A stretch of DNA of 64,000 bases. Origin: Hericium rajendrae (lineage: Eukaryota; Basidiomycota; Agaricomycetes; Russulales; Hericiaceae). The first letter of the stretch is position 1; every line of letters starts with the position of its first letter. A program made the position numbers and the translations under genes. The notes under the pieces were generated by a model. That model saw only the letters and a list, made by a program, of their open reading frames with translations, made no database searches and had not been told where the DNA came from. The DNA lies in contig CM065884.1 in assembly GCA_033439255.1 (NCBI GenBank), positions 868,001 to 932,000 on the forward strand, in the 5' to 3' direction. Positions 260 to 62,747 of the stretch are shown in pieces.

Positions 260-1778
260 ATGAAGGCAAACCAGGAGCTGACCGTCTATAACTGGACGGA
301 GGACACGCTCGTCTTTCACTCCACAGATGACCTGGACCATGCACTTGAGCCTCGCACCTCAATCAACGTGGAATCGACGCGCAACTTCACGCTCTCCCCA
401 TTCAAAGAGAAATACGCGTACGATTTTGAGTCGACTGAGGGCGTGAAGGGGCTGGGAATGTTTGGCCAAAAGTACGATGTAAGACTGAAGAAGCGCGGGG
501 CGGCTTTCCTTCAGGCGATGGTCTCCCAAGAGTGTCCATGGAGGATATATCGTCGAAGGTACGTGTAACATTGGTTGAAACTGAGAATTGGACTCAATTG
601 TCCTTGTGTCAGCTCTCGAGGAAACGCCAGAATGTTCTCATCTTCTCAAAGAGAAATCTGGCGTCCTTCTTGTCTGAGATTCCAGATTCACTTGCACTGT
701 CTGCTGTCTGTCTTCCAGGTATGTTTACCATGTTTACTGACTTGAGAGCTTCAATCATGACCTCATTTCCGGATAGGTACCCATGATACGTTCGTTCGTC
801 TTATCTCTCAATTTTGACATGCGATACTCAGACACACCGCAGCATGGCATTTTACGGATGGCCGATGAGCCAGTGTCAGGCCGAAGATACGCATCTCGCC
901 GTGCAACTTAAGAACCGGGATTCGCGTTCTGGACATCCGCCTGGCCGTCAAGGAAGGCCAATTGATATCTTACCATGGCCAATACCCAGAACGCACGCCA
1001 TTCATCTCCATTCTCCACGACCTTTACGCCGTTCTTGACTGACCCTGCCTCTTCCCGCGAAACCATCGTCGTCTCCATCAAGCAGGAAGACTACGACGAC
1101 ACGCCCGGGGACATCTTTTCGCGCACCGTGCGTGAAGAGATCGAAGCAAGTGAGGGCGGGCTGGGCATGTGGTATCTCGCGAACAAGATCCCGCTGCTGG
1201 GCGAGGTGCGCGGCAAAGCAATCATGTTCAGTCGGTTCGGCGGGACGGCGCCGAGTGGCCCAACGCGCTCGAGGGCATGGGCATCCACCCGACGACGTGG
1301 CCGGACAGCGAGAAGCAGGCCTTCTCCTGGGAGCTCAAGAACACGCTCGTGCGCACGCAGGACTGGTACCACATCTCGTCGTTCCTGGACATCCCCGAGA
1401 AGGTCCAGCTCGCGATCGCGCTTACTGATCCCACCGCCTGTGACGGAGCCCCCGATCCCGGTGCTCTCGATCACGTATTTCTCCGCGTCGTCGTTCCCGC
1501 TCGCGGCGCCGTCGGTCATCTCGACGGGCTTTGGGTGGCCGAGCATTGGGCTCGGCGTGGAAGGGGTGAATAGCCAGATTGGCCGCTGGCTGCTCGATAT
1601 GCTGAGCGACGGGTCGAAATCGCAAGGCGTAGGGACTTGCGGCCTGACGGATGGGCCCAAGATTCGCGGATGGACGTTAATGGATTTCTACATGGAGCCT
1701 TTTGGGTCTGACGTTGTTCCATTGCTGGTGGAGTGCAATTTTCGTGGTCGGACCAACGAGGAGGGATGGGCACAGTAA
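260..1778 (+). CDS. PI-PLC X-domain-like phosphodiesterase, frame-broken
   Basis: Phosphatidylinositol-specific phospholipase C-like (bacterial-type X domain) protein; the family cleaves or binds phosphoinositide-type phosphodiesters. Start at 260 gives an N-terminal region before the catalytic fold. I place introns at 559-620, 719-776 and 790-842; the last two rebuild the motif LPGTHDTMAFYGWP, whose first His codon (782-784) is the expected catalytic His. The second His lies in QLISYHGQYP (codon 974-976). Further family motifs are IPLLGEVRGKAIMFSRF (about 1184-1245), GMGIHPTTWPDS (about 1277-1312) and the C-terminal PLLVECNFRGR. These conserved stretches lie in different frames: about +1 near 910, +1 near 1028, -1 near 1250 and +1 near 1420. 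No intron fits those breaks, so either sequence errors or recent pseudogenisation. Family call is strong; enzymatic activity is not shown. Confidence 0.85.
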
Positions 1779-3183
1779 TACCAACGACCCATGAACACTT
1801 TAAGACTTGACCTTGCATCTTGACTTATTGCTGGAGCTTGTATTTCCTGTACACACACGGATCGATATACTGTACAGTAGATTTGGATGGTTCCACTTGG
1901 CCTTCACTACAGCCCATACATACGACAGGTGGCCACTCGGGACAAAGTTCGTGCAGACAGTGAGCACTATGCAACATTAACTGTGCGTTGTGCTAGATCG
2001 TGCTGCCCATTGCAAGAACCCATCCCTGCAGCCCTGTGGTCTCTTTGAACGGTGATTATACACGCTTATTTAGTGTTTTCCGGATAGAAGACTAACACGA
2101 TCAAAACACGATCGTGACCACTGACAGGTTGCATAGATGGGTCAGTTGGCCGACTAACGTTTCCTTCCTATCTGCCATTCCCAATCTGCAAGCCATCATA
2201 ATCCTAAGATGGACCCTACCTAGTTCCTCAATGAAGCACGATGGCGAACATGGTATGCAATTTTCTGTCGAGCGATCGCTGTGAACAGTGTTGATTCTTT
2301 TATTTCAAGTCGTCCCATTTCCCGTTGCGTTAGCGTCCAACGTGCACAGCAAGCCATCTTGAGGTCCATCACGTCGATTCGGTGTCCATCATCATCATGC
2401 TTTCACCCTATTTCGCTTCACTGACGACATGGACAGCACATCGATGTTTTTGGATAGGAAGAATCGGGCCACTGATTGGCTAATTTCATAGGCACTGCAC
2501 GGTTGGATGATGTGGAATGGGGCAGGGAAAGCAGCTCGATGAAATGTCTGGAGACCTAGGTGTTCGATTGTGCAGCGATGGTGCTTCCGAGTCCATCCTT
2601 TAACAGCCTCCAACGCCTCGTCTTCTATTTCCAGCCTGCCAAGTCTCTCATTCCCCTGGGCGAGAAAGTCCATATGGCAGATGTCACGGTTCGTCTGACT
2701 TGTTGTTCTCTTATGCTTCCAGCCGTATGGGTTGATCCGAGCTCATCGTCCGGATCGGAGAATGCTGTCTCGCGTTCCACGGTCGTATGCGACGACCGGC
2801 AATAGAAGGAAATTGTTTTTCTACCGATAAGACACGGAGCATCTATCGCGTCCGCTCTTGTCGCAGCTTCGCGTAGCTCCATCGCAACTTGTATGGAGCA
2901 GCACTCCCAAAATCTCAACCTTGCCAGGGCCGAGCGATGGTACTTCCGGTATCCCCGAGTCAGGTGAGTAATTCATGTATTCCAAGTTCGTGAAGATGCA
3001 TGTTTTTACTAGTCGGTTTCCGGCGGGCGCGGCGGATATCAACGTCTTCCGCTATATATCCAACCGCCAGCAAGTTCAACTCTTCAAACACTATCTAAAC
3101 GCCGCTGCACATCCTCTATAATCTACAGCACGGCATATCTACCCACCATCTAAATCCATCTCTACTATCTACAGTCTACATCA
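1779..3183. other. intergenic, no supported gene
   Basis: About 1.4 kb without a convincing gene. Short open frames on both strands (for example 2395-2918 on the minus strand) lack family motifs or splice structure. The last 150 bases hold the promoter and pyrimidine-rich leader of the gene at 3184. Confidence 0.6.
3053..3060 (+). promoter_or_regulatory. TATA-like box upstream of F-box-like gene
   Basis: The sequence TATATATC lies 124 bases before the ATG at 3184, followed by a long CT-rich leader (about 3095-3180), the usual layout of a fungal core promoter. Inferred from position only. Confidence 0.45.
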
Positions 3184-4089: not shown

Positions 4090-4342
4090 CTCTACTTGGC
4101 AACGGTTGATTGTATGCCGCCGTATATACAACCTGGTATTATGCAGGAGGCACTGGACGGCATATCTCACAGGCCATCTGATTCATAATGCAAAATGATA
4201 GGGGAGATAGGCGCACAGATTCACCAAATGGCAGCAGTCACTAGTGAGGTCTGGTGAGGAAAATATATGGCCTACCGTGTAAAAGCGTAGAGAGTCAGTC
4301 GGTGCTTTGAGGGCTAAAAATATTTACTATCATCAGCACTTC

Positions 4343-4415
4343 TGATCCGACCCTGGCTCGAACAGAGGACCTTCTGTGTGTTAGACGATGTGATAACCAA
4401 CTACGTCATCGGACT
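4343..4415 (-). tRNA. tRNA-Val(AAC)-like, degenerate or error-bearing
   Basis: Read on the minus strand there is a good B box (GGTCCTCTGTTCGAGCC), a T stem that pairs CTCTG with CAGGG, and an anticodon loop CTAACAC giving anticodon AAC, with a D-arm AGTTGGTTATCACAT like fungal tRNA-Val. Problems: the 5' anticodon stem is one base short, the D stem has a C-A mismatch and the outer two acceptor pairs do not match well. It is either a tRNA pseudogene or a true gene damaged by base errors, in line with the indels seen elsewhere in the window. Confidence 0.6.
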
Positions 4416-4521
4416 GCTTTTGATTTGAAAAACGTATTCTATTAGAGTGCTCAACACGCACGAGTCGCGAACCGGTGCCAGCGTCTTTCCTCGCCGCTCT
4501 TCAGACCTACTTCTGCCGCTC

Positions 4522-6409: not shown

Positions 6410-7144
6410 ATGGACTTGTACCTCGTCCCGAACGACCCGCTGCATACGACGCTCGTCTCCGCGAACGGTGTCGCGCACTATCAGGTGCGCACGTCGCGTC
6501 CGCTGTCCTCGCTGCGCGCGTGCACGACGCGCATCCAGCGGCCTGCGGACACGGAGGCGGAGAGCATCGTCGGCGAGGTCACGTGGGGACCGTCTCGGGC
6601 AAAGGCCGTCGTGAAGAGCGCGCTGTTCAATGTCCCCGGCGGACATGGGCAGGGGTATGGGCATGAGCGCGAGGTGCGCGTGAAGGATCTGCTGTGGAAG
6701 GAGGGCCCGTTCGAGAGGTGAGTGTGGCGCGCGGGTTGGTGGTGCGGGGCTCACGCGATACCAGGTCGCGGTATTTCGTGGGTGACGATACGGAGACGTA
6801 CAAGTGGAAATTTACAAAGGGCATGGGATTCCAGGTATGCGGCAAACACCTGCTTGCGCGTTGATTTCGTTGCTAATGTGCGGCGCGTAGCTAATCCACA
6901 TAACGACGTCCTCGGTGAAGGCGTTCTATAACCCCGCTCTCAAGTACGTCGCAGAAGGCATGTTCAGGGCATGCTGAAGACGTGCCTGCGCATCCACCCG
7001 TCCTGCGTGCTGGATATTGACATCATCGTGCTCACATTTATTATCATGGAGAAGAAGCGACGTGACAACCTCGACGAGGACAACATCGCGTCCGCGCATG
7101 ATGAAGAGCCTGTAGAGGCTGGGACGGAGGCGGGAGGTGGGTAG
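6410..7144 (+). CDS. DUF6593-domain protein
   Basis: The ATG at 6410 opens MDLYLVPNDPLHTTLVS, a characteristic start of the basidiomycete DUF6593 family (function unknown). Next come IQRPADTEAESIVGEVTWG and, after an intron near 6719-6765, RYFVGDDTETYKWKF; a further intron near 6835-6889 precedes LIHITTSSVKAFYNPALK. The C-terminal strand LDIDIIVLTFIIMEKKRRD is typical. A missing base near 6973 (GGG run) shifts the frame between AEGMFRG and MLKTCLRIHP; without that slip the protein is complete and about 190 residues long. Family members are small soluble proteins, often in many copies in mushroom genomes. Function remains open. Confidence 0.8.
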
Positions 7145-7663: not shown

Positions 7664-10600
7664 ATGATGTTCACTAAAACACTTGACAAGGTGGCAGGAA
7701 ATACGTTTGACTATGTTATAATAGGTCAGGACTTCCATCTTTCCGGCCCGGATCATTCATTGACACTCATTGTATCCAGGTGGAGGCGTATGTCCTAGCT
7801 CAGTTGCACATCCATGGCTTCTGTCTGACCGTACATTCGCGCATATAGACTGCAGGCCTCGTGCTGGCGTCTCGTCTCACCGAGGATCCAGATGTCGCGG
7901 TCTGCGTCTTAGAAGCCGGGCCCGACCACGGAGACGACAAGAGACTTTGTATGTCTACTATCATGGCTCGATCCGACTTCCGCACCATTGATGTACATTT
8001 ATTCCGTCAGCGGCGCCAGGGCATTATGGCTTCAATCTAGCGAATCCTCAGTATGACTACGCATTCACGACGGTCCGTGGTTAATCTTGATCGCAAGTAT
8101 ATATTGTGCTGTATCTTGGTGCTCTGCAGGTTCCGCAGAACCATAGCGACGGCAATGTCGCATTGTGGCCGCGGTATGCTCGCTTCAGCTTTCTTTGCTG
8201 GTATAATGTTCAATTCTTTGCAGGGGAAAGGACTGGGCGGCAGCTCGTTGCTGAATTTCTACACATGGAACAGACCCTCTGTGGAAGACATAAATGGTGT
8301 GCTTCTTCATTTGCTTGTGAATGTCTTATTTAACTGTGGACCGCTTGTCAGCCATCGAAGAACTGGGAAACTCTGGATGGAATTGGGAGCGATTCCTCAA
8401 ATACTCGAATAAGAGCGAGATGTGCGTCGTGGCGACAATTAAGAGTTTTTTCTGTCTGATTTGGATCATTACAGATTTGTGCCACCTTCGAGCCAGGTCG
8501 CCACTGCAGACCGTCTAACCTGGGACCCGAAATACCACGGCTTTGATGGTAATTTCATGAACCTTCGCTGCCCGTGATCGACGATTCATCTCATGATATT
8601 TGTATAGGTCCGATAGAGACGGGGTTCGTCACTGGTCGGTCAGGCTGGGAACTCTTGTTTCAAGATGTAGGTCCTGCTTGCCCTTCTCAGGAATCGATGC
8701 GCTGAAAGTAACTTTTCAGACTCTAAATGGGATGGGCGTACCGACTGGCGAGGATGCTGTGCGTTGTTTAATCTCAGTTTTTGCGCCCCTTCTGATACCC
8801 TAAGTCAGAACTCAGGTCAGGTAGGTAACCTTCAGCTGGACCGATTGGCGGACAGTGAATCACGGCTCCATCATCGCAGGCAAGCGGGACGTTCTCCGTC
8901 CTGTGTTCCATCAATCCGAGGACCAATTTGCGCTCAGACGCAACAGTGGGTATATGAAATATGTTCTTTCTGGATCTGAGCTGAACTTCTCGAGGACAGG
9001 CATACCTCAAGAAGGCGGAGGGTAGAGAAAATCTGACCATCCTCACAGAAGCCATTGTGTCCAGAATCCTCTCTTCCGATAGGGAAAAAGGAAATGTCAA
9101 CGTTGTGGCGACTGGTGTCGAGTTTCTGCACGGCGGAAAGAAACACCAAGTCGGTGTGAAGCGCGAGGTTCTATTGTGTGCCGGGTATGTAAGCTGTCAC
9201 CTCTTCCCCTTCGCCGAATCTCATCATCTTGTATAGCGCAATTCAATCGCCACAGCTGCTCGAGCTGTCCGGCATCGGCGACCCCGCCGTACTGCAGAAG
9301 ATCGGTGTCCCAGTCAAAGTGCCACTTCCGGGAGTTGGGGCTAATGTCCAGGAGCATACGGCCATTGCTCTGAGTTACGGTGCGACCGATCTTTGTCTGA
9401 TTATATGCGCAGCTTACGCATCATCTGATGTATAGAGCTAAAAGACCCCGATAGGTTTCAGAGTCTTGATGCCCTGCACGATCCCGCCACGTACAAGGAA
9501 CAGGCTCAACTGCTGTAGGTATCCCATATACTCTTCGCTTGCTCGGATACTAACTTTTCCATCTTTACAGGACCGAAGGCAAAGGGAGTCTCATGACCCT
9601 CGGTGCTCTGTCCTACTTCATGCTCCCGCTCAAGACCATCTCCTCGCGCGCCGCGGAGCTCATCGCAGCACAAGAAGTGAAATTAAGTGCGCGGAAACCG
9701 TCGCTAAGTCCGTCGCTGAAGCGACAGTACGAGATCCGCATGCGCGATCTCAAGCGCGGGGCCACGACGCTGGAATGCGCCACGGCGCCGTTGTTTGCGA
9801 GCCGGCCGAGTGAGTGCGAGTGGTCTGGTCGCAGGGGGTGCTGATGTATGGGTGCTTGTTCAGACCCGCCGGAGCCGGGGAAGAAGTATGCGTCTTTGTT
9901 TGCGATGACCAACCACCCGTGGTCGAGAGGGACAATCGTCAGTGCCTCGTAAGTTCCGTTTCTCGTGGCTGATATGCACCGCAGCACGCCGTGTCTACCG
10001 ATCCTACAGTTCCGCCTGCGATCAACCCCCATTTATTCGAGGATAATTTCGGTGCGTTTCTTGTCGACATGGCGTTTTGTCGATGGCCAAACGCCTGCGC
10101 AGACTTGGCGACAATGCTTGAGCTGGTGAAGTACATCGGACAGTCCCTCAACATGAGCCTTTCAGCTCCTGTTTCGGTGCGTTGTGCTGCGTTATCGGGT
10201 AGATCCAATGCTGATATTGCGGTCATAGGCCGCGAGATTAATCCTGGTCCGGATGTGCAGAGCGACGACGATTTGGAAACCTGGATCAAGAAGTACAGTG
10301 GCACTGCCTCCCGTGCGATTCTGCTTTGCCTTCAAACAACGCCGCCTTGCTGACCTCTCGAGCAGATACCGGCTGGTTCCTGCTCGATGCTTCCGAGAGA
10401 GCTGGACGGGGTCGTTGATCCGAAGCTTAAGGTCTACGGCACGGAGAACATCCGCGTCGTTGATCTGTCAGTGCTTCCGATTCAAATTGCTAGCCATGCG
10501 CAGAGTGAGGAATGCTTTTCCTCGGGTTGTTGCATTTCTGAGTTTATTTTATGTCACAGCTTTTGTGTATGCTCTTGCTGAACAGGGTACGTTTTGTATC

Positions 10601-10680
10601 GATCATATGGAGAGTTCGAAACTACTCACGAGATTCTTTGTCCATAAACAGCGGCAGATATCATCAAGGGAAATATATAG
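7664..10680 (+). CDS. GMC-family FAD oxidoreductase
   Basis: Glucose-methanol-choline flavoprotein, about 590 residues over at least fifteen exons. Visible landmarks in order: FAD dinucleotide fold DYVIIGGG then TAGLVLASRLTEDPDV and VLEAG (about 7700-7925); GMC signature 1 GKGLGGSSLLNFYTWNRP (8224-8277); signature 2 GAIQSPQLLELSGIG (about 9238-9285); C-terminal GSCSMLPRELDGVVDP and VLPIQIASHAQ, whose His is the expected catalytic one. Ends AADIIKGN at 10680. No signal peptide is visible, so it may be intracellular, like many alcohol or choline oxidase types; the substrate cannot be told. One extra base near 10372 breaks frame just before GSCSM. The middle (8815-8990) has an intron arrangement I could not settle. 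Members supply hydrogen peroxide or oxidise alcohols in fungal metabolism. Confidence 0.88.
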
Positions 10681-11685: not shown

Positions 11686-13585
11686 ATGCCTCCCATTACA
11701 AAGCCGGTCGATGGCGAGAAGTACGACGCGATCTTCATTGGGGGCGGTAGCGCCGGGGTTGCGGGATCTGTATGTTCCACTCGAGGTCATCGTCCGACGT
11801 CAATTGCTCACAGTTCCAATAGCGTCGCGCAGCTTCCTATGGGAAAAAAGTCGCCCTCATCGAAGAGAGTGGAAAGCTTGGTGGAACTTGTGTCAACGTC
11901 GGTCAGTGTCTCACCGTCGTCCTGCTCCAGCAGAAATTCTTCGTCCTCTGCCTATTCGGCTTTAAATCAGAAGAAACATGCACGAGACGCGTCATGTCGC
12001 GTCATGTCGCTGTTATCACGTTTCCATGTGCTGCAATGACAGTGGGCGTGTGATCAGGATTTCTGCTGTGGCTGTACTTCGTATATTACTTTGTCACTCA
12101 CGCTGTTGTATACATACAGGATGTGTCCCTAAAAAGGTGAGCATGCCCATATCTAGCCTCTGAATATATGGCTCACGTAGTGCACAGATTATGTGGCATG
12201 CCGCTGACATTGCTGACAAAATTCGTCACGCTGGTGATGGCTACCACTTCGAGGTGCCCAAGGGCGGCGCTAAGTTCGATTGGAAGACCTTCAAGCCGCA
12301 GCGCGACAACTACATCAAGTTCCTGAACAACATATATGACAATAACGTCGAGCGCGAGGGCGTCACATACCACTCTGGACACGCAGCGCTGACTTCGTCC
12401 AACACGGTGGACATCACCGAGACCAACGGCAATAAGTACACCATCCACGGCGACACGGTCATCCTTGCGACGGGCGGTCGACCCATCATCCCATCGGACG
12501 AAAAGATTCCGGCGCGGAGCTCGGCATCGATTCGGATGGCTTCTTCGACCTCGAGGACCAGCCCAAGCGTGTCGCTGTTGTCGGCGCGGGCTACATCGCG
12601 GTCGAGCTCGCCGGCGTACTGCACACGCTTGGCTCCGAAACGCACCTTGATCATCCGCAAGGACCACGTACTGCGCACTTTTGACCCGACGCTGCAGGAG
12701 ACACTGACGCCGTGGATCGAGCACACGGGCATCCACCTGCATAAGAACAGCAATGTCATCAAGGTTGGGGGCGTATCGGGTCAGACGCTCACCGTGACCA
12801 CCGACCAGGGTGCCGAGATCGAGGTGGACACCGTGCTATGGGCCATAGGGCGTCGGCCGAACACGGACAACCTCGGGCTCGAGAAGGCCGGCGTTGAGAC
12901 GGACAAGAAGGGCAATATCAAGGTCGACGAGTGGCAGGCGACGAACGTGAAAGGCGTATATGCGCTCGGCGACGTACAGGGTAAGGCGTTACTCACGCCG
13001 GTGGCCGTCGCGGCGGGCCGTCGCCTGTCCAACAGGCTGTTTGGCCCTCCGCAGTTCAAGAACGACAAGCTCGACTACAACAACATCCCCACCGTCGTCT
13101 TCTCGTACGTCGCGCTGCGTTCCCTCTCCTTGCACAATTGCTCATGCGATGCAGGCACCCACCGATCGGCACCGTCGGCCTGACCGAGCCTGAAGCGCGC
13201 CAGAAGTACGGCGACGCGGTCAAGATCTGTGCGTTCATCCCGCCTCTATCATAGCTGATCGCTGACTGCTTTGCAGACAAGTCTTCCTTCCGCGCGCTCT
13301 ATTTCTCTATGATACCGCCTGAGCACAAGGAGCCCTCCGTGTACAAGCTGGTTGTCGTCGGGCCCGAGGAGCGCGTCGTCGGTATCCACGTCATCGGTAT
13401 GGGCAGTGACGAGCTCATGCAGGGCTTCGGCGTCGCGGTGAAGATGGGCGCGACGAAGAAGGACCTTGATGACACCGTTGCGATTCATCCGACGTCGGCT
13501 GAGGGTACGTTCATTTGTTGTGTGCGTATGTCTTGTGGAAATGGTACTGATGCGTGGGGTTGCAGAGCTTGTTACTCTCCGGTAA
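11686..13585 (+). CDS. glutathione reductase
   Basis: NADPH-dependent flavoprotein that reduces glutathione disulfide. Order: FAD-binding [16 protein letters not shown] (first exon); after an intron, [21 protein letters not shown] and, across another intron, CVPKK, the redox-active Cys pair; [15 protein letters not shown]-binding [15 protein letters not shown] with following [10 protein letters not shown]; second FAD segment [19 protein letters not shown] (about 12950-13010); dimer-interface end HPTSAEELVTLR with the catalytic His, stop 13583-13585. About 470 residues. A missing base near 12508 and an extra base near 12640 put the NADPH-binding region in another frame; the conserved sequence on both sides argues for base errors rather than loss. 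No clear mitochondrial presequence with this start. A CRE-type site upstream suggests stress control. Confidence 0.92.
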
Positions 13586-15463: not shown

Positions 15464-16681
15464 ATGGACTTAAATGACAATGTTCCCGACCGTGATTCGG
15501 GCAATCGTCTGAATCACACATCGCTGGCGCCATTCCCAATTCCTGTCGAACTTCTCCACGAGATCGTCCTTATCTACCTCGCAGCCTCTTTCTGGAAACT
15601 AGTTGCTGAACCCGGGCTGGAGATAGACTGGGATCCACTTTCGCCATTGCTCCACGCATCAGTCCTGTTTCGAGAGGTTACGACGGACATTCTTTGTAAC
15701 ATCATTGGCCCTCCGTTCGTAGACGCACAGGCAAAGTAACGCTTTTCATGTTTCTGGTGAATTTGTCTGATAGCTCTATAGAAATGCGATAAAATATCAT
15801 GACGTGCTTGCTGAATTGAAGCGCCTGAAGACCCTTGCGGAATTGGGAGATCCAAAACAGCTCCTCGACCCTGAGCTCGATGAGCTCGCCACTACACTAT
15901 CGCCTCTCCAGACCGCGGACTCACCCATCCTCTGGCGGACAGGCGAAGCTCGCCGTCACTACTCTGCACCTCCGCCTCTATGAGTGCCATGAAAATGTTG
16001 CTCCCGATGTGAACAGGCGCATCAACCAGATGATCACCCAGTGGATGCTTTTTAAGGGGATACAATGCTCTGTAAAAGCATCAAACTCGGTATTTCAGGC
16101 TATCCTCAGGCCATTTCAAGAAAAATTCATGGCCGGGCAGCATCTCTTTCAGAAGCGTACGTTGTCTGTTAGCTCTGTTTACACGTTGCTGATTTGTTGG
16201 CCCCAGTCTACGGGTTGGTGACTATATGCGGACAATTGAGAGGCTGTTATTCATCCTTGCTGGCGTTCCCGCCGAAGTCATTCTGGCGGAACAGCCTATT
16301 CTTGACGAGGTCTTGGAGAAGACGGCAGAGTCCAATTCGACTATAGACGGAAGAATGCAGCTCCTATTGCAGTTCGGCTTCGACATCCCGGCACTCCGCA
16401 TCCCCAACGCTGTCCTCGAAACTATCAAATTTTACAAGGTCCTGTATAATTCGCGTATCCCAGAAGACCGGCCGCATGATGATCCCTTCGTCGGCTTCTG
16501 CCAGCGCGTTCGAAAGCTTTTGTTCTCTTATCTGCAGGAGGACCAGAAGGAGACAGCTCTGCTGAGGGTTGATCAGCTGCGTGTGGAAGCGGAGGTGCCC
16601 ATAGATTGGGACGACGTAGATGATTTCATCTATAATTATACAGATTCCGGGAGCGACGATGAAGGGCTTGATTTGGATTAG
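15464..16681 (+). CDS. F-box-like family protein, copy 2
   Basis: Tandem paralogue of the preceding gene, 395 bases downstream in the same direction. Shares FPIPVELLHEIVLIYLAASF, DPLSPLLHASVLFREVTTDI, VLAELKRLKTLAEL, VTTLHLRLYECHEN and the C-terminal LETIKFYKVLYNS..DPFVGFCQRVRKLLF. Intron one is about 15735-15780. The frame slips near 15935 between SPILW and QAKLAVTTLHL, and again does not join cleanly at the intron near 16157-16206. The C-terminus is acidic (WDDVDDF.. DSGSDDEGLDLD). Function unknown; see copy 1. Confidence 0.6.
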
Positions 16682-25867: not shown

Positions 25868-26746
25868 CTTGAGTGGCGCATTCCAGAATGCAGAATGCGC
25901 GGCTGTGCGGCGGCGGATGTGCATTGCAAGATCCGGGCGGGTGCTGCGGGTCTGCAAAGCCATGCAGGACCGGGGCGGGAGCGATTGGGGTGGAGACGGT
26001 GCTGCGTGATGGCTCGGCGGTCCAAGAGATGCACGCGTCGGTGCGGGTCTTAGTCACAGACTGCCAATGGCCTTGCGAATCTGGACATGCGCAGGGATGA
26101 AAGGGACCGGGATGGACAAAGTCCCACAAAGCAAGCCGCGCACAACGTGCCAGGGACGCTGTCAGGACAAGCTTGCTTGTCTTTCATTCATGAAGAAGAG
26201 AAGCGGCGCGTGGATCTCGATGCGAATCAAAGGCCATCAACGCGGGATGCAGGGCGTGCGCGCCGCTGCTGCCACGGTACGCGCCCCGATCGCGTCGCTC
26301 GGTGGTTCCCGAGAAAGCAAGGAGGTGCGCGGGGGGGCGGGCTTGGCGGATGCGCCGGGCTGCTGGGTGCGGGGAAAGGAGCGGAATCAAAGTTGATGCG
26401 GGGCGGGCGAGGGAGAGGACGAGGGGACGTTTCGTGTCGGATGGCGAGTCGGATAGAAACGGATAGGGGACGAGAGGAGGGATCTAGAAAAGGCTGGAGA
26501 GAACGTGGGATGGAAGTGAAGGGCGGCAGAAGCGGTGAAGAAGGAAATGAAGATCTGGACGGACGGGCGGAAATGGAACTCGATCAGATTCAGCACGGTG
26601 GTCGGGGGAGCGCGATGAGAAGCACGTGCATGAATAAAGGAACAGCGCCTGCTCGCCCGCCCAGGCTGGTTACATATTCCCCTCCATCGCCCTCCCTCCT
26701 TCATCCACCCAGCATCCCATCTACCGCAGCACACGATACCAAAGCC

Positions 26747-28383
26747 ATGACCGCCGTTATGCAGGCCCCTCACCTCACTCACGCTCACACCGTGCCCATT
26801 CCCACCCGCAGTCAGCCGCAGGGCATCCTCCTCAACCCGTCCCCGTCCGCACGCTACTGCCCCCTCCCCTCTCTCGCTTTGGACTCCTTCCCAAAGCCAG
26901 CCCAACATTCGTCGACTCAGTCGCTGGCATCCACATCATCGTCGTCCTCTGCGTCTCCGTCACCATCCTCGTCAGCCACTAACACTCCACCGCCGTCAAT
27001 GCCCCACGACACCCATCTGACCCCCCGCGCCCTCGCCCTCGCCAACCGTGCTCGCAGTGGCTCCGCCCCTGCCGGCCGCCGTATCCGTTTTGCGCCCCTT
27101 CCCGACCCCCGCGCCGAGGAGGAGGAAGAGCTCGACGATGACGGCATTCCTTCGCACACGCCCTCCCGCAGCGAATCCTCCGACTCCCTCCCCACCCCCG
27201 AGTGCTCTACCCTCCTCCTCCCCGACACTCCCACGCCCTCCGCCTCCTCCCTCGCCACCTTCACCCTCCAGGCGTCCCCGCTCCCCAAGCGCAACCCCTC
27301 CCCGTGCTTCCCCCACGCCCCCGCAAACACCACCCTCGCCAAGAAGCTCTTCCGCCCCTTCCTCCTCCGCAACCCCCCCAGCGCCGACCAGCTCCCCGGC
27401 CTCGGCCTCTTCAAAACCGGCTCGCGCGAGAGCTCCCGCTCCCGCACCGACGAGTCCAGCAGCAGCTGGGGCGCGCCCCTCGGCCGCTGGACGTCCGAGA
27501 GCGCCGTCGAGAAGACCCGCCGCGGCAGCACCTCCTCGGCCAAGTCCGCGCCCGCCCTCGACGTGGCGAGCGCCCCCGCGACCCCGCGCCGCACGACGCG
27601 CCTGCTCAACGGCCGCGTGTACGGCGGGCGCCGCAAGAAGCGCGAGCAGGGCAATGCGTTCGCGAACGCGAAGGACGAGGACGAGTTCGTCGAGTGGGGG
27701 TATGGCGGCATGGGCAGCGTGCGTGCGGGCGCGGGCGTCTGGAGCCGCTTGCAGAGCGACCAGAAGGTCGTCGTCGGCGCGCTCGAGGGCGAGCGCGGGC
27801 GCAGCATTGCGCGGCCCGCGGCGGCGAGCGGCGATGGGGACGACGGCAGCGGGATGGCGTGGGTGCGCAGGCGGCGCGAGGAGCGCGAGCGCGAAAGGAA
27901 GGTCAGGGAGGAGCAGGCGAAGGCTGGGGAGGTGGTTGAGGAGAAGGTGGAGGTGCCTGTGACGGCGGAGCCGGAGGAGATCGTGGTTGCGCCGCCTGCG
28001 GGCGAGGAGAAGGGCGAGGGCGCGCAGCATGTGCATACGGCTGTGAGCGTGCCCGCGCCGTATTATCGCCCGCACCATCACGCGCGCACGCTTTCTATGG
28101 AGGGCAACGGCACGACGCCAACCCCAGTCGCCAGTCGACGGCGGATGGGAAACCAGCCCTTCCTGAGGCTCCGGCGCCCGCGTTGGTCGCGCCGGAGCCG
28201 GAGGAGGAAGAGGACGACGAGAGCGAAGAGGCGACGAGGATGACGAGGAGGAAGTCGACGACGAGGTATGTCTCGCGTCTGTTTCCCCAACTTAACGCTG
28301 ACATCGAACAGGAGCAGCACCGCAAGACTGCGCTTGGGGCAGGGGTCGAGATCGTCGGGCGGCACGCGCATCACCGCGAGTAA
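26747..28383 (+). CDS. conserved disordered basidiomycete protein
   Basis: Start ATG at 26747 follows a CT-rich leader. The protein is long, Ser/Pro-rich and mostly disordered, with short conserved islands: RRIRFAPLPDPRAEEEEELD, NTTLAKKLFRPFLLR, TTRLLNGRVYGGRRKK, DEFVEWGYGGMGSV and GMAWVRRRREERERE. The end HRKTALGAGVEIVGRH follows an intron (about 28266-28311, GTATGT..CAG) and stops at 28381. I recognise this as a protein shared among agaricomycetes without known function. Two frame slips (near 28125 and 28237) separate the body from the acidic EEEEDDESEE tract and the last exon. The long upstream open frame from 26087 lacks these features and is probably leader. Large open frames on the opposite strand are shadows caused by high GC. 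Confidence 0.7.
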
Positions 28384-44102: not shown

Positions 44103-44710
44103 GGTGGGGTTTGACGGACGGAGAGCAATGCGGGCTACATGCTTATAAAGTATACAAAGCGAAGAAGTCTGAAGACACGAGCGTTGCTTCTGTGAAATAG
44201 GTGGTCATTTTATCGTCACCTGCGTGATAAGACTGCCATTCCTGAGAACGTGGTGAGTGTGCGATAGATGTGCTAGCTGTAGATCGAGAAAGATAGAAGC
44301 GACGAAACTATCGAGAATATCTATCGACCTTGATCCAGGCAGCCGGGGGAAGCAACGATCATAGTCTTGATAAACGCACGGCGACGTTAATCTGCCTCGA
44401 ATGCATGAACTCAGCGAGTAATAGCAAATCCCTGAGAGAAATAAATGTGTGAAAACGACAGTTGGGAGCAAGACAGGAGGCATACATCGGGTGTCAATTG
44501 CTTGCCGTTGGGCAATGCCCCGCGCATATAAGCCTCCCACAGAGAAATGAGAATAAATAACATGGTGACGTCTGGGTAGAATAAGTAAACACGGCCATCC
44601 CGTCCTGGGAATGTCATTGGTTGAGTAAGATACATAGCTGTCAACAGACGAGAACACCAGTGAACGAACCTTCGTATGCACCTCGTATACACTCCAGCCC
44701 TCATTGAACA
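44103..44710. other. intergenic, no supported gene
   Basis: About 600 bases between two minus-strand BTB genes. An open frame at 44205-44711 has no family motif; likely promoter and 3' end. Confidence 0.5.
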
Positions 44711-45828
44711 ATCACAGCGGCGGATAATCCGCCAAGGTAAACATCTTCGGAATCTCCTTCCAAAGTGCTATTCTCTTCTGATCAAGCATCGCCTGCAACG
44801 CGTCACAGCACTGCCAACAGAGTTTATCCGCCATGTTCATGTAGCGCAGCCACGAGAATCCCGGGATTCTGGGAAAACTATCAAAAGCCTTATTCTTGCG
44901 CGCCTGCAGAAGAAGAGCATGCATCCCCTCGGTGCATCGCGGTTTACGACGACATGCAGAGCACGGTGTACTGCACAAGATATCGAACATCAGCGTGTGG
45001 CGCCCGGCGAGAATCCTTGGGTGACCCGCATGTATTGCCTGCAATATCGTGTCGCCGTGTTCATGGAAACTGTCCCCACAAATCTCCTCCGCAAGCTCAA
45101 GACATGGGACGAGGTGATCAGGGGTCCATATGGTGCAGATGCAGGCATAGTATGCGATCTGCGCAATAATAGGCATCTGGAAGGACAGGGCTAGATGAGC
45201 GACCACTAGTGAATCAACGAGGGCATCGTCGTTTGACTCGGCGAAGATGGTGTCGTCCTGGTTCGCCTCGAATTCATCCAGACTGAGCGAAAATTTCTTG
45301 CCGATGCGCTGGTGAGCCTTCCGTGTCAAATATTCAATCTCGTATTTGCGGCCGAGCTGTAGCCAGGCCTTTATCATCGAAAAATCGCTGGTATCCTCCA
45401 CCATCTCAGAATAACTAAATGCGAGTGTTCAGTCAGCACGACGAAACGGTCCAGATCCAAAGCGACGATGATCGTACGAGCCTTGGTCGGTATATCGTCT
45501 GCAACATATCCTCCAGATCGCCCGCATCATCATCGAGCTTCACAATAGGACAACTTCCCATGGTCGCTTGATCGTACTTCTCCGGCGACGAGAGCATCGC
45601 CTTGAGAACGGGGGAGTGCTCCGACAGAACGGACTTGTGGACACAGAACTGGCTCGTCTCAGCTTGAAGGATGACGCTCCCGTCTTCATACCAAACCCCG
45701 CCGCGCTCTATCACTGGAGCTTCGGAGGGCAAGAAGATGGCGTCTCCGTCGGCCAAGACATCTTGCATTCGCCGTTTCTTCGGTGCTGAGGGCGACGACA
45801 CCTCGCTGACGATCGTTTCGGAAGACAT
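44711..45828 (-). CDS. BTB/POZ-domain protein with Cys-pair C-terminus
   Basis: Minus strand, ATG at 45828. BTB core GVWYEDGSVILQAETSQFCV, HKSVLSEHSPVLKAML and DLEDMLQTIYRPR, then an intron near 45405-45470 whose donor I could not fix. Second exon MIKAWLQLGRKYEIEYLTRK and the acidic middle FEANQDDTIFAES; C-terminal module CSTPCSACRRKPRCTEGMHA, ADKLCWQCCDALQAMLDQKR and LWKEIPKMFTL. Closely parallels the genes at 17237 and 41102 in layout, with the same IYRPR ending of the first exon as 17237. Apart from the splice uncertainty it has no frame break. Adaptor function inferred. Confidence 0.8.
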
Positions 45829-46322
45829 TTCTGGGAACAAATCTCAGTATCACATTGCATTAGATCTCAGCATCCATACCTGTTGCAACAGAGACCGTTC
45901 TTGCTTGCTGTCGTCGCGCTTGGAGGAAATCTCTGAAGTGGAAGGAAAGTAGAAGCAAGCGCCTATCCAGCGTCGTAATTGACGCCGGTGCGCCACAAAC
46001 GCGTCCAAGGCGCGTCGACGCGTTGATGTAACTTACAGAGATCAAAAGTCAGTAACCCCAAATGCTCGCCCTCAATCATCAAGACATGATGTGTGATGAG
46101 GCGTACCGCGATCCAATCGGCTATAGAGCTGCTTCGCGAGGGCCTCCCCACATGTTCAATGGTAATAAACATGTTATCACGATACACTTCGAGTCAAATC
46201 AGAACGTGCGTACACAACTACATCATTAAAAAAGCGGAAGGCGAAATAAGGAAAGTGCGAGGCCCATCATATGTGGGGTTTGGATAGAAATAAGAAAAAA
46301 GATGAAGCCATCCAGCTAAGGC

Positions 46323-50375: not shown

Positions 50376-50609
50376 TGTCGGACGCAGTGGCAGAGACGGA
50401 CTGGAATTAGTAATCACAGAATTGGACGTGGCAGAGCCTGCCCTAAACTCGGGGCAGGCCTCGGTCAGCATTTCCTTGTTTAGGGCAGCCTCATCTGTCT
50501 GGGACCCACCACAATCAGATCCATCATCTTCGCGGGCCTCCAGGCCATTTTCTTTTCTCTGTAGCTATCTGTGTTTCTACTCTTTCCCGGAGCTTGAAGC
50601 ACCGTCAAA
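50376..50609. promoter_or_regulatory. bidirectional promoter POP7-like / eRF1
   Basis: Only 234 bases separate the two start codons, so both promoters and leaders must share it. Contains TTTTCTTTTCTCT-type pyrimidine runs before the eRF1 ATG. Confidence 0.65.
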
Positions 50610-52197
50610 ATGAGTCAAGATCAGGCGGAGCAGAACATTCAGATGTGGAAGGTCAAGAAGCTCATCAAGAGCCTTGACTCTGCCAGAGGGTACGTCCTGA
50701 TCAGCTTTTGGTGTCGTCTTGGTCTAACATCCTTTGGTATTTCATAGCGCTGGCACTTCCATGATCAGTCTGATCATTCCACCAAAAGTGCGTAGCAATC
50801 CAATGGGCTCTGAGAGCTAGTGCTGATCTTTGACCCAGGATCAAATTTCTCGCGCGTCTGCCATGTTGACGCAGGAGTATGGAACTGCGTCTAACATCAA
50901 ATCTCGTGTCAATCGGCTTTCAGTGCTCGCTGCTATCACCAGTACCCAGCAACGATTGAAGCTGTATAATCGTGTGCCGCCAAATGGCCTCGTGCTTTTC
51001 GTCGGTACCATTCTGACGGACGAAGGAAAGGAAAAGAAGGTGTCATTCGATTTCGAACCGCACAAGCCCATTAACACGTATGTTTTCCCGACTATTCATT
51101 TTTTTAAATCTGCTAAATACGTACGTTCCATTTCGCAGATCGCTGTACCTTTGCGACAACAAATTCCACACTGAGGCTCTCTCGGAACTCTTGGAGTCGG
51201 ACTCGCGCTTCGGTTTCATCGTGATGGATGGTAACGGCACTCTTTTCGGCACTCTTGCTGGCAACACGCGTGAAGTCATTCACAAATTCACCGTCGATCT
51301 GCCGAAGAAGCACGGACGTGGTGGTCAGTCTGCCCTGCGTTTCTCTCGTCTGCGTGACGAGAAGCGCCACAACTATGTCCGCAAGGTCGCCGAGCTGGCT
51401 GTCCAGCACTTCATCACAAACGACAGAGTCAACGTCACCGGTCTAGTTCTGGCCGGTAGTGCGGACTTCAAGACGGAGCTCAGTCAGAGCGATATGTTTG
51501 ATCCACGCCTCGCGGCAAAAGTCATCAAGGTCGTTGATGTTAGTTATGGAGGCGAGAACGGCTTCAACCAGGTACGTCATCTTAGCATCACTTTGGCGGA
51601 CCCATGCTCACGACACGTTGCAGGCAATCGAACTTGCTGCCGAGTCTCTGGCGAATGTCAAGTTCGTCCAGGAGAAGAAGCTGATTCAGAAATACTTCGA
51701 CGAAATCAGTCAGGACTCCGGCAAATACTGCTTCGGTATCGAAGATACCCTGAAGGCGCTCGAATTGGGTGCCGTCGAGACCCTCATCGTCTGGGAGAAC
51801 TTGGACATTACTCGTTACGTCCTCCGTAACGCCGCTGGAGGTAAGTCGTTATGCGTGTATAATACTTTTGCATATATCTTACTGGTGCACAGAGGAAATC
51901 ATCGTTCACGCCAACAAGGAGCAAGAAAAGGACCGCGAAAAGTTCATCGACAAGTCGACCGGTCTCGAGATGGAGCAGGCTCAAGAGCCCCAGTCGTTGC
52001 TCGAGTGGTTTGCTGAGAAATACAAGGAATTCGGCGCGAACCTCGAGTTCGTGACGAACCGCTCGCAGGAGGGCGCGCAGTTCGTGAAGGGCTTCGGTGG
52101 CATCGGCGGCCTGCTGCGCTATAAGGTCGACTTCACAAACCTGACGTCGATCGACGAAGAAGAAGACGAGTTCTACTCTGACGATGATGGCATCTGA
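50610..52197 (+). CDS. eukaryotic release factor 1 (eRF1)
   Basis: Translation termination factor that recognises all three stop codons and triggers peptidyl-tRNA hydrolysis with eRF3. Six exons; introns 50690-50747, 50788-50838, 51078-51138, 51573-51623 and 51841-51892, all GT..AG and frame-keeping. Domain 1: NIKS loop (codons 50893-50904) and YLCDNKF, the stop-codon reading elements. Domain 2: [10 protein letters not shown] with the GGQ catalytic motif (51320-51328). Domain 3: [20 protein letters not shown] and [12 protein letters not shown], the eRF3-binding part; acidic end [13 protein letters not shown]. Full length (about 435 residues) and intact. Being an essential gene without a single frame break, it is a useful control for the indels seen elsewhere. 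Confidence 0.97.
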
Positions 52198-56649: not shown

Positions 56650-56853
56650 ACCATTGTCTGCGAGAGACATGCTGGCTCATTTGCTTTACTGTAGATTCGT
56701 CCATGGGTAGCCTACTGACGTGTTGTGTTCAGCATTTTTGCTTGTTTATATGGGTGTAATACAGTGATAATATGCTACAGGAACATATAATCTGGTCTAG
56801 TTCTGAGATGATTGGGTTGGTAAAGCGTGCCGAAGAAAAGCGAACTCACAGAT

Positions 56854-57813
56854 CTACAGATCGAAGTCCGAGTCCGAGTCTGCGTCCCTTTTGGCTGCAT
56901 CTCGGATGTTCTTGGTTGAGCGATTTGTCTTCGTGGTTGCTGATCGCATATCGTCGTCGTCGTCGTCATCCTCCTCCTCACTGTCACGATCTCTCGATGT
57001 CGATCTTCCGCCCGGTACTCGCTCCGGTGGATCGATGGCCCCATGCATTATGAGGAGGGCCTCCAGTTCTGTAAGAGCAATGAATTCACGCCGCAAGACC
57101 CCTGATGAAGGACATACCTTCCATCTTATGCTCTCGATCAGCACCCCAAGATACGACTTGGCAAATGATCTTGCCCTTCCTGTAGCATATAAACGTAGGG
57201 ATCCTGGTGTCCGGGAGATTTTCGATGCATTTGTCCCCTACGATGGAAACGAACTTCGTGCTTGGATATCGCTTAGCTAGCATCCTTACGTGCGCGAAGG
57301 TAAGATCGCTACGCGGGATCCTGTTAATTAGAAGCCGCGATCAGAAACGGGGAACAGAAGAACGAAGGTGATTCACCGACCCATCCTTGTAGAGGAACAA
57401 GACCACAGGCGTGCCCAGCTCCTTCTCATCGTCCTCTTGATTCACTTCACTGGCCTCTGTCAACTCCTAGTGTAGTCCTCTCTACCAATCGGGATGACCT
57501 CGCCGAAACGACCCCTCGCCTGCTCCCGCTTCAGCTCGGCGAGATGCATTTCTCGCATCTGCAGGACATATCGCTCCAGCTCATCGTCCTTTACGTTCTC
57601 CGCGAGCTCTTGCAGTTCAGCCGGGGTAAATTCATCTACGACGTCGTCGAGAGACGGCGAAGGAGGTGGCGATGGCGTTCGCGGCTTCGGCGGAGTGGAG
57701 GCAGAATCCCGTGCTTGCGCAGGGCCTCATTGCTGATGATGTTGTTGGTGGGGTTTGCTAAGACATGATGAAGCTGCTCACAATTCGGTATCTTCGTTTG
57801 GGTTTATCGCCAT
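56854..57813 (-). CDS. phosducin-like protein (PhLP2/PLP2 type)
   Basis: Thioredoxin-fold protein that helps the CCT chaperonin fold tubulin, actin and G-beta. Minus strand, start MAINPNEDTEF at 57813; an intron with donor GTGAGC and acceptor ATCATCAG leads to NEALRKHGILP. Then SLDDVVDEFTPAELQELAEN and YVLQMREMHLAELKREQARG; EKELGTPVVLFLYKDG; MLAKRYPSTKFVSIVGDKCI and SWGADREHKMEG; end MRSATTKTNRSTKNIRDAAK with DSDSDFDL, typical of this subfamily. Two single-base losses (near 57700 in a C run and near 57472 in GGG) break frame between otherwise collinear parts. Shares a 193-base divergent region with Dicer. Confidence 0.9.
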
Positions 57814-58006
57814 CGTGGTGGTTCGGTGTCGAGATGGGTTCGACGGTGAGAGAATCGCGGAACGCGTCGCCACTTATCGACCCGACATGGCTTGATCAGG
57901 ACAAACAGTTGTCTCTTACTGACTTCAGACAGTTCTCTGCGCACGGCCTTGCTGCCCTCTCAACTACTCCTTGCTTATCGATCTCACTCGTTCACTCGAG
58001 GCCGTC
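57814..58006. promoter_or_regulatory. bidirectional promoter PhLP / Dicer
   Basis: 193 bases between divergent start codons; both promoters must lie here. No specific site is clear. Confidence 0.6.
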
Positions 58007-61000
58007 ATGACTGTTATTTCTGAAACCCCACAACCTGATCGAATCATCACCCCGCGTCTCTACCAAGAGGAGCTTTTCCGCAAAGCTCGGGACGAGAATG
58101 TTATCGCAGTCGTGGGCACGGGCGGCGGCAAGACGCTCATCAGTGCGAAACTGATGGAATGGATGACATGCCAGGACGCTGCTGCGGACAAGATCATCGT
58201 ATTCCTTGCCCACAGAAAGCCCTAGTCGACCAGCAAGGCGAATTCATCGCGGCGTGGACACGCTTGCGCGTTACCCACGTCCATGGAGAAACAGCCCCGG
58301 AGATGACAGATCGTTCCGCCTGGGTGAGGCTTTTCTCCAATCTGGACGTGATGGTCATGACGCGTGCGTGTTTTTCTATCATGCGGTTGTCTACTTCGAG
58401 TGCTCATGCCAGCGCTTGCAGCCCAGCTATTTCTGAATACCGTCACCCATTCGCACTGGAGCTTGACCAAGGTTATTCGCATCCTTGACTGGTTTCACCT
58501 TTGGTTGATGGTCGTCCGATTGACGGTCATAGGTTTCGTTGATGGTCCTCGACGAATGCCATCATACCCACGGGAACAATCCTTGTAATGCCATCATGCG
58601 CGAATATTTTCAATGCTCCGCCGACGAGAGGCCAAAAATATTCGGTATGACGGCTTCGCCATTTCGGCGGCCTCATAGACCCAAGGAGGACCTCGCTGAA
58701 TTGGAAAGGAACCTCGATGCTCGAGTGATTACCGTAGAGGAGCATGCAGAAGACCTGCAGAAACACTTACCGAGACCCGTGGAGGTATGCATACGCCGTT
58801 TTGAATGTCCTGGTGCTAGTCATATCTTATCTTGAAATCAGGTCCTCAAAGAATACGCTTCTCCACCAGCTACCTACCCAGATTATCCACTTCCATTCAT
58901 CTGGAGCCGGTTCGATTATACCAAGATACCAAGTATATATGATATACCCTGGTCACAACTGCAGGACCGACTCGCAGTCATATCGCAGAGCTTGGGTCCA
59001 TTCGGCGCAGAGATCTACCTATATAATCGAGCTGCAACGATATCTGGTCCAGCTTGCCCTTTCCTCCACCGAAGATGAGATCGATATGCTACGCGAGCGC
59101 TTTCTCGACATGGGTACCTCCAGTGGTTCATCATTCTCTCAAGACTTACAATCATCTGAGTTGCGGGACTTGCACGAGATCTTGCAAGAGTACAAACCTT
59201 TCTATCAGGATGATGCCGAAGAGGCCAGCCTCCCACCTGCATGCTATTTCAACCCAGGATGGTGTACACCCAAGGTTCAGAAGTTGGTAGAAATCCTCGC
59301 GTTCCATTCTGGATTGGCGTTCCAGGGCATCGTTTTCGTCGACCAACGATGCGTGGCTGCTGCTCTGGCGAGAGTTATCGCCCGTGTTCCACAGCTGAAG
59401 GATGTCATCCGTTGCTCCGAGTTCGTTGGGCAAGCCACTGGCGACACCAATCCTCCGCTTGCCATTGGAGGAAGGAGGCAGAAGGAGGTCGTGAAAGCAT
59501 TCCGTCGTGGCGAACTGAATCTCCGTAAGTTCCTATTGCTTGTACGAAGGTCGCTGTCTAGCTGAACTAGCAAGCAGTGATAGCAACGTCAGTCGCAGAA
59601 GAAGGGCTTGACTTCCCAGTGAGGCAGGCGCATTGATATCCTGACATTACAGGACTAATTTGCATCTAGGCGTGCGACCTAGTCGTCCGATTTGACCCCA
59701 TGAAGGTGGTGACGAACTACGTGCAGTCTCGAGGGCGAGCGAGGCACGAAACGTCTACTTTTGTGGTCATGATCCAGGAAGGCGATGTGGCGAATCTAAC
59801 TCTTTATCAAAGTTTCGTCAAACACGAGGAGGAATCAAACATCTGTATCGACGGCCATCAGCAGACAGCGTTGAATCCCCCGGCGAGGCTAACGACGATT
59901 ATGTCCATCCGGAGGACTTACTACACCGGGAGCGATTTGTCGTGCCGTCTACCCAGGCGATTCTGACGTACGGCACAGCCATAACTCTTCTGAATCGACT
60001 ATGTGATCTCATTCCTTGCGATAAGTACACACCCCCACACAAGCCGAGATTCGAAGGAGACTTCGAATCCACCCTCTATCTTCCCAGTGCCCTTCCGCTG
60101 CCTCCGGAGTACCTCGCCTATACCGGCCCAATACGACACTCCAAGAAAGAGGCCAAGCGTGCAGTTGCGTTCCAGGCTGTCAAGGCCTTGCATGGTCTCG
60201 AGGTGTTCGATGATTATCTCTTGCCAACTTGGAGTCCCAAGGCCCACATGGAGACTTAGATGGCCGACCACTCCTGGATGTATCCAAAGTCCCTATCATG
60301 ATGGATGTCGATGTCAAAGATCCTTGGACACTTGGAGCGCAGCTGTGGGCTCACCCTGTCGTCGTGGATGGCCGATGCACAGCAGCGCTCGTGACTGGTA
60401 CAGCGCTCCCGCCTACTGAGATGGACGTGGAATGGGCGTCCCGTGCAGACCGGCCCAGGTCGGCGTCTTCTCTTTGCCGAAGATGACGAGCGGGAACAAC
60501 GCACCCTGCTGCAAGATTATACAAATGTTGGACTATGGTGGTGCGTGACGAGCCGGCCCATCTCCTTGCCGCTGTCTTGCTTCTTGGTCCCTGTCGATCC
60601 GCGGACAGGCATGCTGGACTATGATGCAATGCAGCACGCCGTTGATCGTCCTCTCGGCGATTACGACTGGACGACGATCGACGAAAACCATCACGGTCAT
60701 CTGCTCATCATGAACAGGTGGCAGCATGGTCGACCTTATCTCATCCACACGATACGACATGACCTGAATCCGATGTCAAAACCTCCAGCTGGTTCACGAG
60801 AAGAGCAGTTCGCAACATACCGAGACAAATGGATCGAGAGATGGACTAGACGACGCGTGGTGCCTGATATCCCCGTTGACGGTCCTCTCGTTGAAGCTCG
60901 TATCTTTCAGCGGCAAACATCTGGAGCTTATCATCTGTTTCCGGATGGCCCCTATTGCGACGGAAGCCAGCTGGACGACGAATATCACCTACTCCCATTC

Positions 61001-62747
61001 GCATGTTGCAAGTGGCTTCGCATGCCTGAGGCCATGTTCTCGCTCTTTTCTTTTCTTCCGCGCTTGTTACATCATCTCACGGATGTTTGGCGAGTCACCC
61101 AGGCTCGCTTTGATTTAGGGCTCCCTGCTATCCCCCGTGATCTGCTGGTCGAAGCTTACACGCTTCCAGCGGCATGTGCGGGTTTCAAGTAATCAACGCC
61201 TGGAGACGCTAGGCGACTCTGTGCTCAAGTTCGGTACTTCTGTTCATCTATTCAATAAGTTCCCTTATCGGCATGAGGGGCAACTAGATGCTCTTCGGCG
61301 ACGATGTGTCACCAACAAAGCCCTCCTGTCACATGCGAAAGAGATAAATCTCGAGCGTTATTTGACCAGCGAGGGGCAAAACATCAAGACTTGGCGATAC
61401 ACCGTCTCCGAAGAGGATGCAGCTCTAGTTGAATCTCATGCTTGTCGTCATGTCAGGCGTAGATTTGACCGGAGAAGTTTACAGGACTGCATGGAGGCCA
61501 GTATCGGAGCAAGTTACGTCGCAGGAGGCATTCCGATGGCTTTGCAAGCTGGAACTGCTCTGGGACTCAATTTCGGAGGTATGGTCCCATGGTCTGTACG
61601 TTATAGCCGTAATCCTCTGGCCTGGACTATACCATCGCGCTTCGATAAGCTGCAAGAGGCGCTAGGATACCGATTTCATCGACCGGAGCTACTTATCGAA
61701 GCCATGACGCACCCCTCTTTCCCTTCTACTGGGTCTTCGTATCAACGCTTAGAGTTTCTCGGAGATGGTATGAAGTCCGTTCAAAGCCAACATCTCACAA
61801 GCTGACCCACCGTGTCGCGTAGCTGTGATCGACTTGGTGGTCATGACCTATCTCTTCAACAAGTATCCCAAGGCCACTTCGCACCAGCTATCATGGCCAC
61901 GCTCCCGCGCAGTTTGTGCGCCTGTCCTGGCATACGTCGCGGTGAAGCGTCTCGGTTTGCATCAGCTGATGATGGCAGCTAGCACCGATCTTAGTGCGGC
62001 GATTAACAAGTATACTCCCATTCTCCTCCGTATGTCATCCAGCGATATAGTTCTGCGGAGCTGGGCGTTCGACCCTCCAAAGGCGATCAGCGACGTGTTC
62101 GAGAGCCTTATCGCTGCCGTATTCATCGACTCGGCATATGGCTTTGACAAAGCCTCGGCAGTGGTCCAACTGGTTATGGACGACATCTTGGAGGTTCTGG
62201 CGCCCGATATGCCTCCTGATCCTGTGTCGCAGCTCATGGTGTGGACTGGTCAATCGGGCTGCAAACGGATCTGCGTTCGGTACGTAACTGATCGTCCGCT
62301 GCGGTCCTTATGGTTTTGGCTCATCTTCCATACCGCAGGAAATCAAAGAGTCAACCAGAAAGCAAATTTGATACCGTCACCATCATCGTTCACGATGTTG
62401 AAGTGGTGAAACCTCTGACTGCGTCGAGTATATCCGTTGCGAAAGCTTTTGCCTGCGAGGCCGCGCGTATTGAACTTCAAGACCCCAGCTCGGATAGATC
62501 TCTATCGCGCCTGTGCACTTGTGGTGACAACATGAACGTCGACTTGACTTCCAAATCAACATCATTGGATATTCTGGATCTGGATGAGGATGCAGATGAC
62601 GGCACGGAAGAGGGCTATCTTGTCTTGTCACAGACGAAGCTGGAAGAAGTCATAGAATCAGCCGTAATTGAAGATACTGAAACAGCAAGTCATGACGACG
62701 ATGAAGGAGAAACGGACTCACCAGAACTAGCTGCGCACGTAGTTTGA
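58007..62747 (+). CDS. Dicer-like RNase III
   Basis: Fungal Dicer, cutting double-stranded RNA into small RNAs for silencing. About 1,400-1,450 residues. Order: helicase Walker A GTGGGKT (58117-58137), DECH box (58551-58562), helicase C with ATSVAEEGLDFP, ACDLVVRFDP and QSRGRAR (to about 59735), Dicer dimerisation domain TAITLLNRLCDLIPCDKYTP (about 59980), a PAZ-like region without a clear canonical PAZ, RNase IIIa QRLETLGDSVLK (61193-61228) with CMEASIGA, RNase IIIb QRLEFLGD (61743-61766) spliced over intron 61768-61822 to AVIDLVV, with DVFESLIAAVFIDS, and a dsRNA-binding-like tail. Acidic E and D residues of both RNase III centres are present. Single-base slips lie near 58208, 59025, 59850, 60245, 60455 and 61187. 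Confidence 0.92.

Follow-up and report, generated by a model that had tools for sequence, protein, structure and literature searches.

A stretch of 64,000 nucleotides of the Hericium rajendrae genome (C7:868001-932000 of the strain NPCB A08 assembly, C7 being contig CM065884.1; hereafter the window) had been described in a first-pass annotation as carrying single-base frame breaks in conserved genes, among them glutathione reductase and Dicer, caused either by long-read errors kept in the assembly or by real breakage of the genes. Our analysis indicates that these breaks are very probably residual base errors of a draft dikaryon assembly rather than features of the organism. Moreover, it shows, with small samples, that the break rate per coding base on C7 is about seven to thirteen times that of the other sampled contigs.

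According to the available portion of the genome paper (PMC10608310; accession PRJNA1018320 in its table), NPCB A08 is a dikaryon with a heterozygosity of 3.61%, for which error-prone long reads (i.e., Nanopore R9.4) were assembled with NECAT, followed by two rounds each of Racon and Pilon and by purge_haplotigs. The resulting 46,767,965 bases are distributed over 19 contigs, the largest of which (C1) spans 5,307,752 bases, and the N50 of 3,238,877 is the size of C6. Since this is a single assembly from a dikaryotic strain, the window represents two nuclei by one consensus sequence. Two figures given in the same text were counted for assembly errors, i.e., a BUSCO score of 91.6% (vs. 96.4 and 97.5 in two relatives) and a count of 13,418 protein-coding genes (vs. 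10,620 and 12,369 in the relatives).

Frame breaks were sought with two custom tools, a parser based on codon usage and an aligner of protein to DNA, each of which permits GT-AG introns and, at a penalty, steps of one or two bases. Support for a break is expressed as delta, i.e., the cost (in nats) of forbidding that break with introns still allowed. Codon usage proved weakly informative (0.23 bits per codon after retraining), and the window genes were parsed with two codon tables.

Within the window, strong support was limited to the glutathione reductase gene, which could be aligned along 443 codons with E. coli Gor (56% identity); besides introns, the alignment contains two frame breaks, near 12506 (delta 17.9) and 12649 (delta 23.4). 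Both are one-base steps, in opposite directions, and their places were unchanged under other aligner settings. The aligner is unable to cross stop codons, and the alignment required just these two breaks, between which the frame-shifted stretch holds what we take, by eye, to be the NADPH-binding motif. When a 152-residue piece was used as query, no second glutathione reductase emerged from the genome, the best other match reaching 39% over 66 residues. Several other sites of the window, a few Dicer ones among them, admit an intron reading.

The Dicer gene has PDB chain matches in each of the three frames, and our own frame map places its frame changes near 58211, 59027, 59871, 60255, 60450, and 61189. 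At 58211, the homology alignment supports a break with a delta of 8.2, and the codon parse instead takes an 83-base intron (58143-58226). The codon parse further placed breaks at 59871 (delta 2.5), 60221 (delta 1.2), and 61190 (delta 0.1), and it took introns of 55 bases (58910-58965) near 59027 and of 58 bases (60391-60449) near 60450. The residues at these last two parser introns look coding, as do those at a third one in the PhLP gene (near 57472, see below). Over ten segments that were picked as open, the Dicer frames run through 1042 codons with 0 stops. No second DNA copy of window positions 59000-62500 was found in the genome, and two distant RNase III relatives are present elsewhere, with 42% and 35% identity.

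In total, 23 sites had been listed, i.e., four in PI-PLC, one in DUF6593, one in GMC, two in glutathione reductase, one in F-box copy 2, three in BTB, two in the 26.7 kb gene, one in a protease, two in PhLP, and six in Dicer, the last having come without coordinates and being compared with our frame map. A site was regarded as recovered when at least one frame-break-aware parse placed a break no more than about 60 bases away. Sixteen of the 23 were recovered in this way, comprising both glutathione reductase sites, PI-PLC 922, 1040, 1242, and 1424, DUF6593 6966, GMC 10398, F-box copy 2 15933, 28127 and 28231 of the 26.7 kb gene, PhLP 57638, and Dicer 58211, 59871, 60221, and 61190. The remaining seven (the three BTB sites, protease 55315, PhLP 57472, and Dicer near 59027 and 60450) were not. 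Codon-parse support for the listed sites was weak throughout (0.1 to 4.2 nats). The DUF6593 break received deltas of 1.7 and 2.3, and the profile pieces of this gene lie in two frames, for which introns alone could account. The GMC break had a delta of 1.7 with one codon table and became an intron (10313-10400) with the other; the two breaks in the 26.7 kb gene had deltas of 2.2 (28127) and 0.9 (28231); and PhLP 57638 had a delta of 1.1, with 57472 parsed as a 50-base intron (57485-57435). Across BTB position 17452, a weak sub-threshold profile match (E = 0.024) stays in one frame. In the same regions, the codon parse yielded four unlisted weak breaks (533, 23688, 26974, and 53328; deltas 0.0 to 2.2). 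Two more unlisted weak breaks from this parse lie at 46250 and 4892 (deltas 2.5 and 2.0). The eRF1-like gene, an internal control said earlier to be free of breaks, indeed showed none.

Breaks of the same kind also affect C7 genes outside the window that should be essential. CCT1 (C7:1262451; 507 codons aligned at 72% identity to yeast) and CCT4 (C7:1921329; 406 codons at 66% identity to yeast), both of which are essential in yeast, each contain one break, with deltas of 14.9 and 33.1, respectively. Each CCT subunit gene was found once in the genome by family search and our own reading, with no second copy seen, and no prokaryotic relatives of one CCT exon turned up in a scan for them. A Hsp70 gene on C7 (L051) is likewise broken (delta 18.1), as is an aldehyde dehydrogenase gene (L079; delta 9.5 at 33% identity), where the codon parse concurs; a negligible second break in the latter (delta 0.5) was not counted. 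L079 was the sole C7 gene fetched after the idea of a C7 excess had formed, and its break was thus found in a fresh test.

On the other contigs, 14 genes (CCT2, 3, 5, 6, 7, and 8; Hsp60; three Hsp70; two ATP synthase subunits; two aldehyde dehydrogenases) with 7081 aligned codons contained one strong break, in an aldehyde dehydrogenase gene on C12 (L077; delta 19.5, with a weak second break of delta 4.0 left uncounted). Broken genes thus numbered four out of five on C7 outside the window (2559 codons) versus one out of 14 elsewhere (Fisher p = 0.006). Since their references were at most 30% identical, L054, L056, L057, and L061 had been dropped before this count; when L056 on C2, a poorly testable gene with weak breaks (deltas 0.7 and 6.0), is included, the comparison becomes 4/5 vs. 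2/15 (p about 0.014, calculated by hand). The codon-usage parse across contigs covered the window and 56 of 70 genome loci, 14 loci being left out. In agreement with the gene counts, at a delta of at least 2 it gave three breaks in 2339 codons for C7 outside the window, six in 10743 codons for the window, and three in 30,634 codons for the other contigs. The binomial tests used 29,634 instead of the actual 30,634 codons for the other contigs and therefore err to the cautious side.

In a random C7 stretch (L080; C7:2400001-2408000), the four breaks obtained were all very weak (deltas 0.2 to 1.6) and unusable for gene counts; the stretch contains pieces of a Ty3-type retroelement, with gag and aspartyl protease domain matches. 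The piece tables of the family searches, in which 13 neighbouring pairs changed frame with a gap of less than 35 bases, were also considered as a break count. Since two of the three candidates inspected there proved to be introns (an Rpb2-like gene on C15, and CCT3) and one a real break (CCT4), these tables were not used for counting.

The breaks depart from the earlier error model in two respects, i.e., their position outside homopolymers and their uneven distribution across the genome, with C7 carrying more than the other sampled contigs. The first-pass annotation had placed many of them in homopolymers. At 17 estimated sites, the longest single-base run within 8 bases averaged 2.71, compared with 2.64 at positions drawn at random from the same regions, and a run of at least 5 was present within that distance at 0 of the 17. 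A tally that includes genes outside the window amounts to 10 one-base steps (an extra base) and 11 two-base steps (a missing base). Neither the homopolymer preference nor the deletion preference of long-read errors was thus seen and, since the breaks lie outside homopolymers and losses do not exceed additions, the usual Nanopore signature is missing.

Besides this missing homopolymer-deletion signature, several points weigh against attributing the breaks to assembly errors concentrated on C7. The breaks were judged from the letters of the assembly, and several sites in the window can be introns. Few genes underlie the excess, the notion of which came in part from those same genes; in addition, the other C7 Hsp70 (L049) is clean. 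For seven of the 14 comparison genes, the reference used in the alignment was only 31 to 35% identical (CCT2, 3, 5, 6, 7, and 8 at 31 to 35%, and one Hsp70 at 32%), so that breaks in them are easier to miss. The sensitivity of the codon-usage parse is limited, since it missed the strong C12 break. Finally, Pilon was applied according to the methods as far as available (PMC10608310), so a wholly uncorrected contig is a guess.

Part of the listed sites could instead be short introns or splice choices, which we regard as rather unlikely. Such a reading is in line with the two introns among the three piece-table candidates and with the introns that the parser took at three Dicer places, at PhLP 57472, and, with one codon table, in GMC. 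Against it, the breaks in glutathione reductase, CCT1, CCT4, one Hsp70, and one aldehyde dehydrogenase can be forbidden only at a cost of 14.9 to 33.1 nats each, and the Dicer break at 58211 withstands introns in the homology alignment. It is far less probable, and in our view very improbable, that the damage to the genes is genuine in one nucleus and made good by the other, as a dikaryon (PMC10608310, portion available) could in principle shelter recessive damage. The two distant RNase III relatives might also permit the loss of Dicer. Each nucleus, however, normally must first live alone as a monokaryon, and the chaperonin genes CCT1 and CCT4 are broken too, which disfavours a pseudogene reading. 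Moreover, no intact copy that would replace the function was found for either glutathione reductase or Dicer, the Dicer segments, though picked as open, are free of stops, and a gene on another contig (L077) is also broken. The suggestion that Dicer and other genes are really broken thus lacks support, and the reading as assembly errors is favoured by the Nanopore origin of the assembly and by the same kind of break in C7 genes that should be essential. That one nucleus would carry a homologue of C7 in which many genes, those for chaperonin subunits among them, are broken, with the partner nucleus sustaining it as a chromosome-sized sheltered load, appears scarcely credible.

With assembly error as the preferred reading, the window belongs to a single consensus built from noisy long reads of a dikaryon whose nuclei differ by 3.6%. 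Single-base frame changes, in both directions and outside homopolymers, do lie inside conserved genes where introns fail to explain them, and such changes strike should-be-essential genes of the same contig. The excess on C7 might in turn arise because C7 missed effective short-read correction or because reads of diverged haplotypes were mixed there. The former, in which raw long-read consensus errors remain on C7 as a whole, is a tentative possibility. C7 breaks also occur about 0.12, 0.33, 0.59, and 0.99 Mb beyond the window, and, among G/C runs of at least 4, those that reach at least 5 are fewer in the window (52 of 298) than off C7 (248 of 964; p = 0.004). However, A/T runs are not depleted (p = 0.25), runs of at least 6 are more rather than less frequent on C7 outside the window than on other contigs, one C7 Hsp70 is clean, and two Pilon rounds are described in the methods as far as available (PMC10608310).

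Haplotype mixing, in which the consensus would jump from one diverged allele to the other and polishing would fail wherever the reads match neither of them, stands at not quite an even chance. It agrees with the published heterozygosity of the dikaryon (PMC10608310, portion available) and with the patchy differences (0 to 60 per 500 bases) within a surviving allele pair, i.e., the copies at C6:1606-32098 and C15:about 78800-104805, which lie in opposite orientation (L017, L039, L041, and L042 vs. L021, L040, L043, and L044). These allelic copies look like an unpurged overlap and account for the fourth Rpb2-type gene in the genome family search. The divergence of the two haplotypes, or their mixing, is very uneven. 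Against mixing, the parse gave one break in C6 and zero in C15 for this pair, and patchy identity can be natural too. Neither of the two causes, missed polishing of C7 or haplotype mixing, could be preferred over the other.

The features of the window are collected in Table 1. Since searches in pieces gave no match of PI-PLC, PhLP, and the protease to their own Pfam families, these names rest on recognised motifs, and the long open frame had no Pfam match. Three successive BTB-domain matches lie on the minus strand at 43073-45675. On the plus strand, weak matches at 63890-64000 indicate the start of a flavin amine oxidase-like gene that is truncated by the window edge.

Table 1. Genes of the window, with the evidence on which each is based (positions refer to the window; deltas in nats).
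Feature	Position	Strand	Evidence and breaks
PI-PLC-like gene (name from motifs only)	860..1778	+	Parse breaks 922, 1040, 1242, 1424; deltas 0.3 to 4.2
DUF6593 gene	6410..7144	+	Pfam PF20236; two introns; parse break near 6966
GMC oxidoreductase	7664..10680	+	Pfam GMC_oxred_N and C; possible break near 10366-10398
Glutathione reductase	11716..13583	+	E. coli Gor alignment; Pfam and PDB matches
F-box copy 2 (name from the first-pass annotation)	15465..16681	+	Break near 15933; parse delta 3.0, one codon table
Long open frame (26.7 kb gene)	26054..28381	+	Frame changes near 28127, 28231
eRF1-like gene (internal control)	50986..52195	+	Pfam eRF1_1, _2, _3; parse unbroken, three introns
PhLP-like gene (name from motifs only)	56850..57860	-	Break near 57638, possibly 57472
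Dicer	58007..62746	+	PDB matches in three frames; alignment; parse; frame segments; Pfam

Uncorrected indels in long-read assemblies are said to fragment genes (reportedly Watson and Warr, 2019). In the available text on Kastor (PMC12007338), which makes the same point, small insertions and deletions break the frames of otherwise conserved genes, as in the window. Unlike in that account, the C7 breaks lie outside homopolymers, additions are about as frequent as losses, and in H. rajendrae the breaks are commoner on one contig despite the reported short-read polishing. In Trypanosoma brucei, the portion of the source available (PMC8445201) reports apparent frameshifts in a collapsed assembly that were corrected by allele-specific assembly, and sequence artefacts are attributed there to a consensus that is a mosaic of two haplotypes, which resembles the present case. 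In contrast to T. brucei, where phased assembly addressed the artefacts, haplotype mixing is here only proposed. In the literature on the NPCB A08 assembly, searched in part and with supplements outside the search, no account of the C7 break pattern was found.

Taken as an artefact of a draft assembly, the breaks are ordinary as biology, the sole surprise being their excess on one contig. The value of the finding is that of a data-quality warning: users of the NPCB A08 assembly may meet false gene losses and split gene models, more so on C7, which would affect gene counts, gene-family changes, inventories of RNA interference genes, and enzyme sequences.

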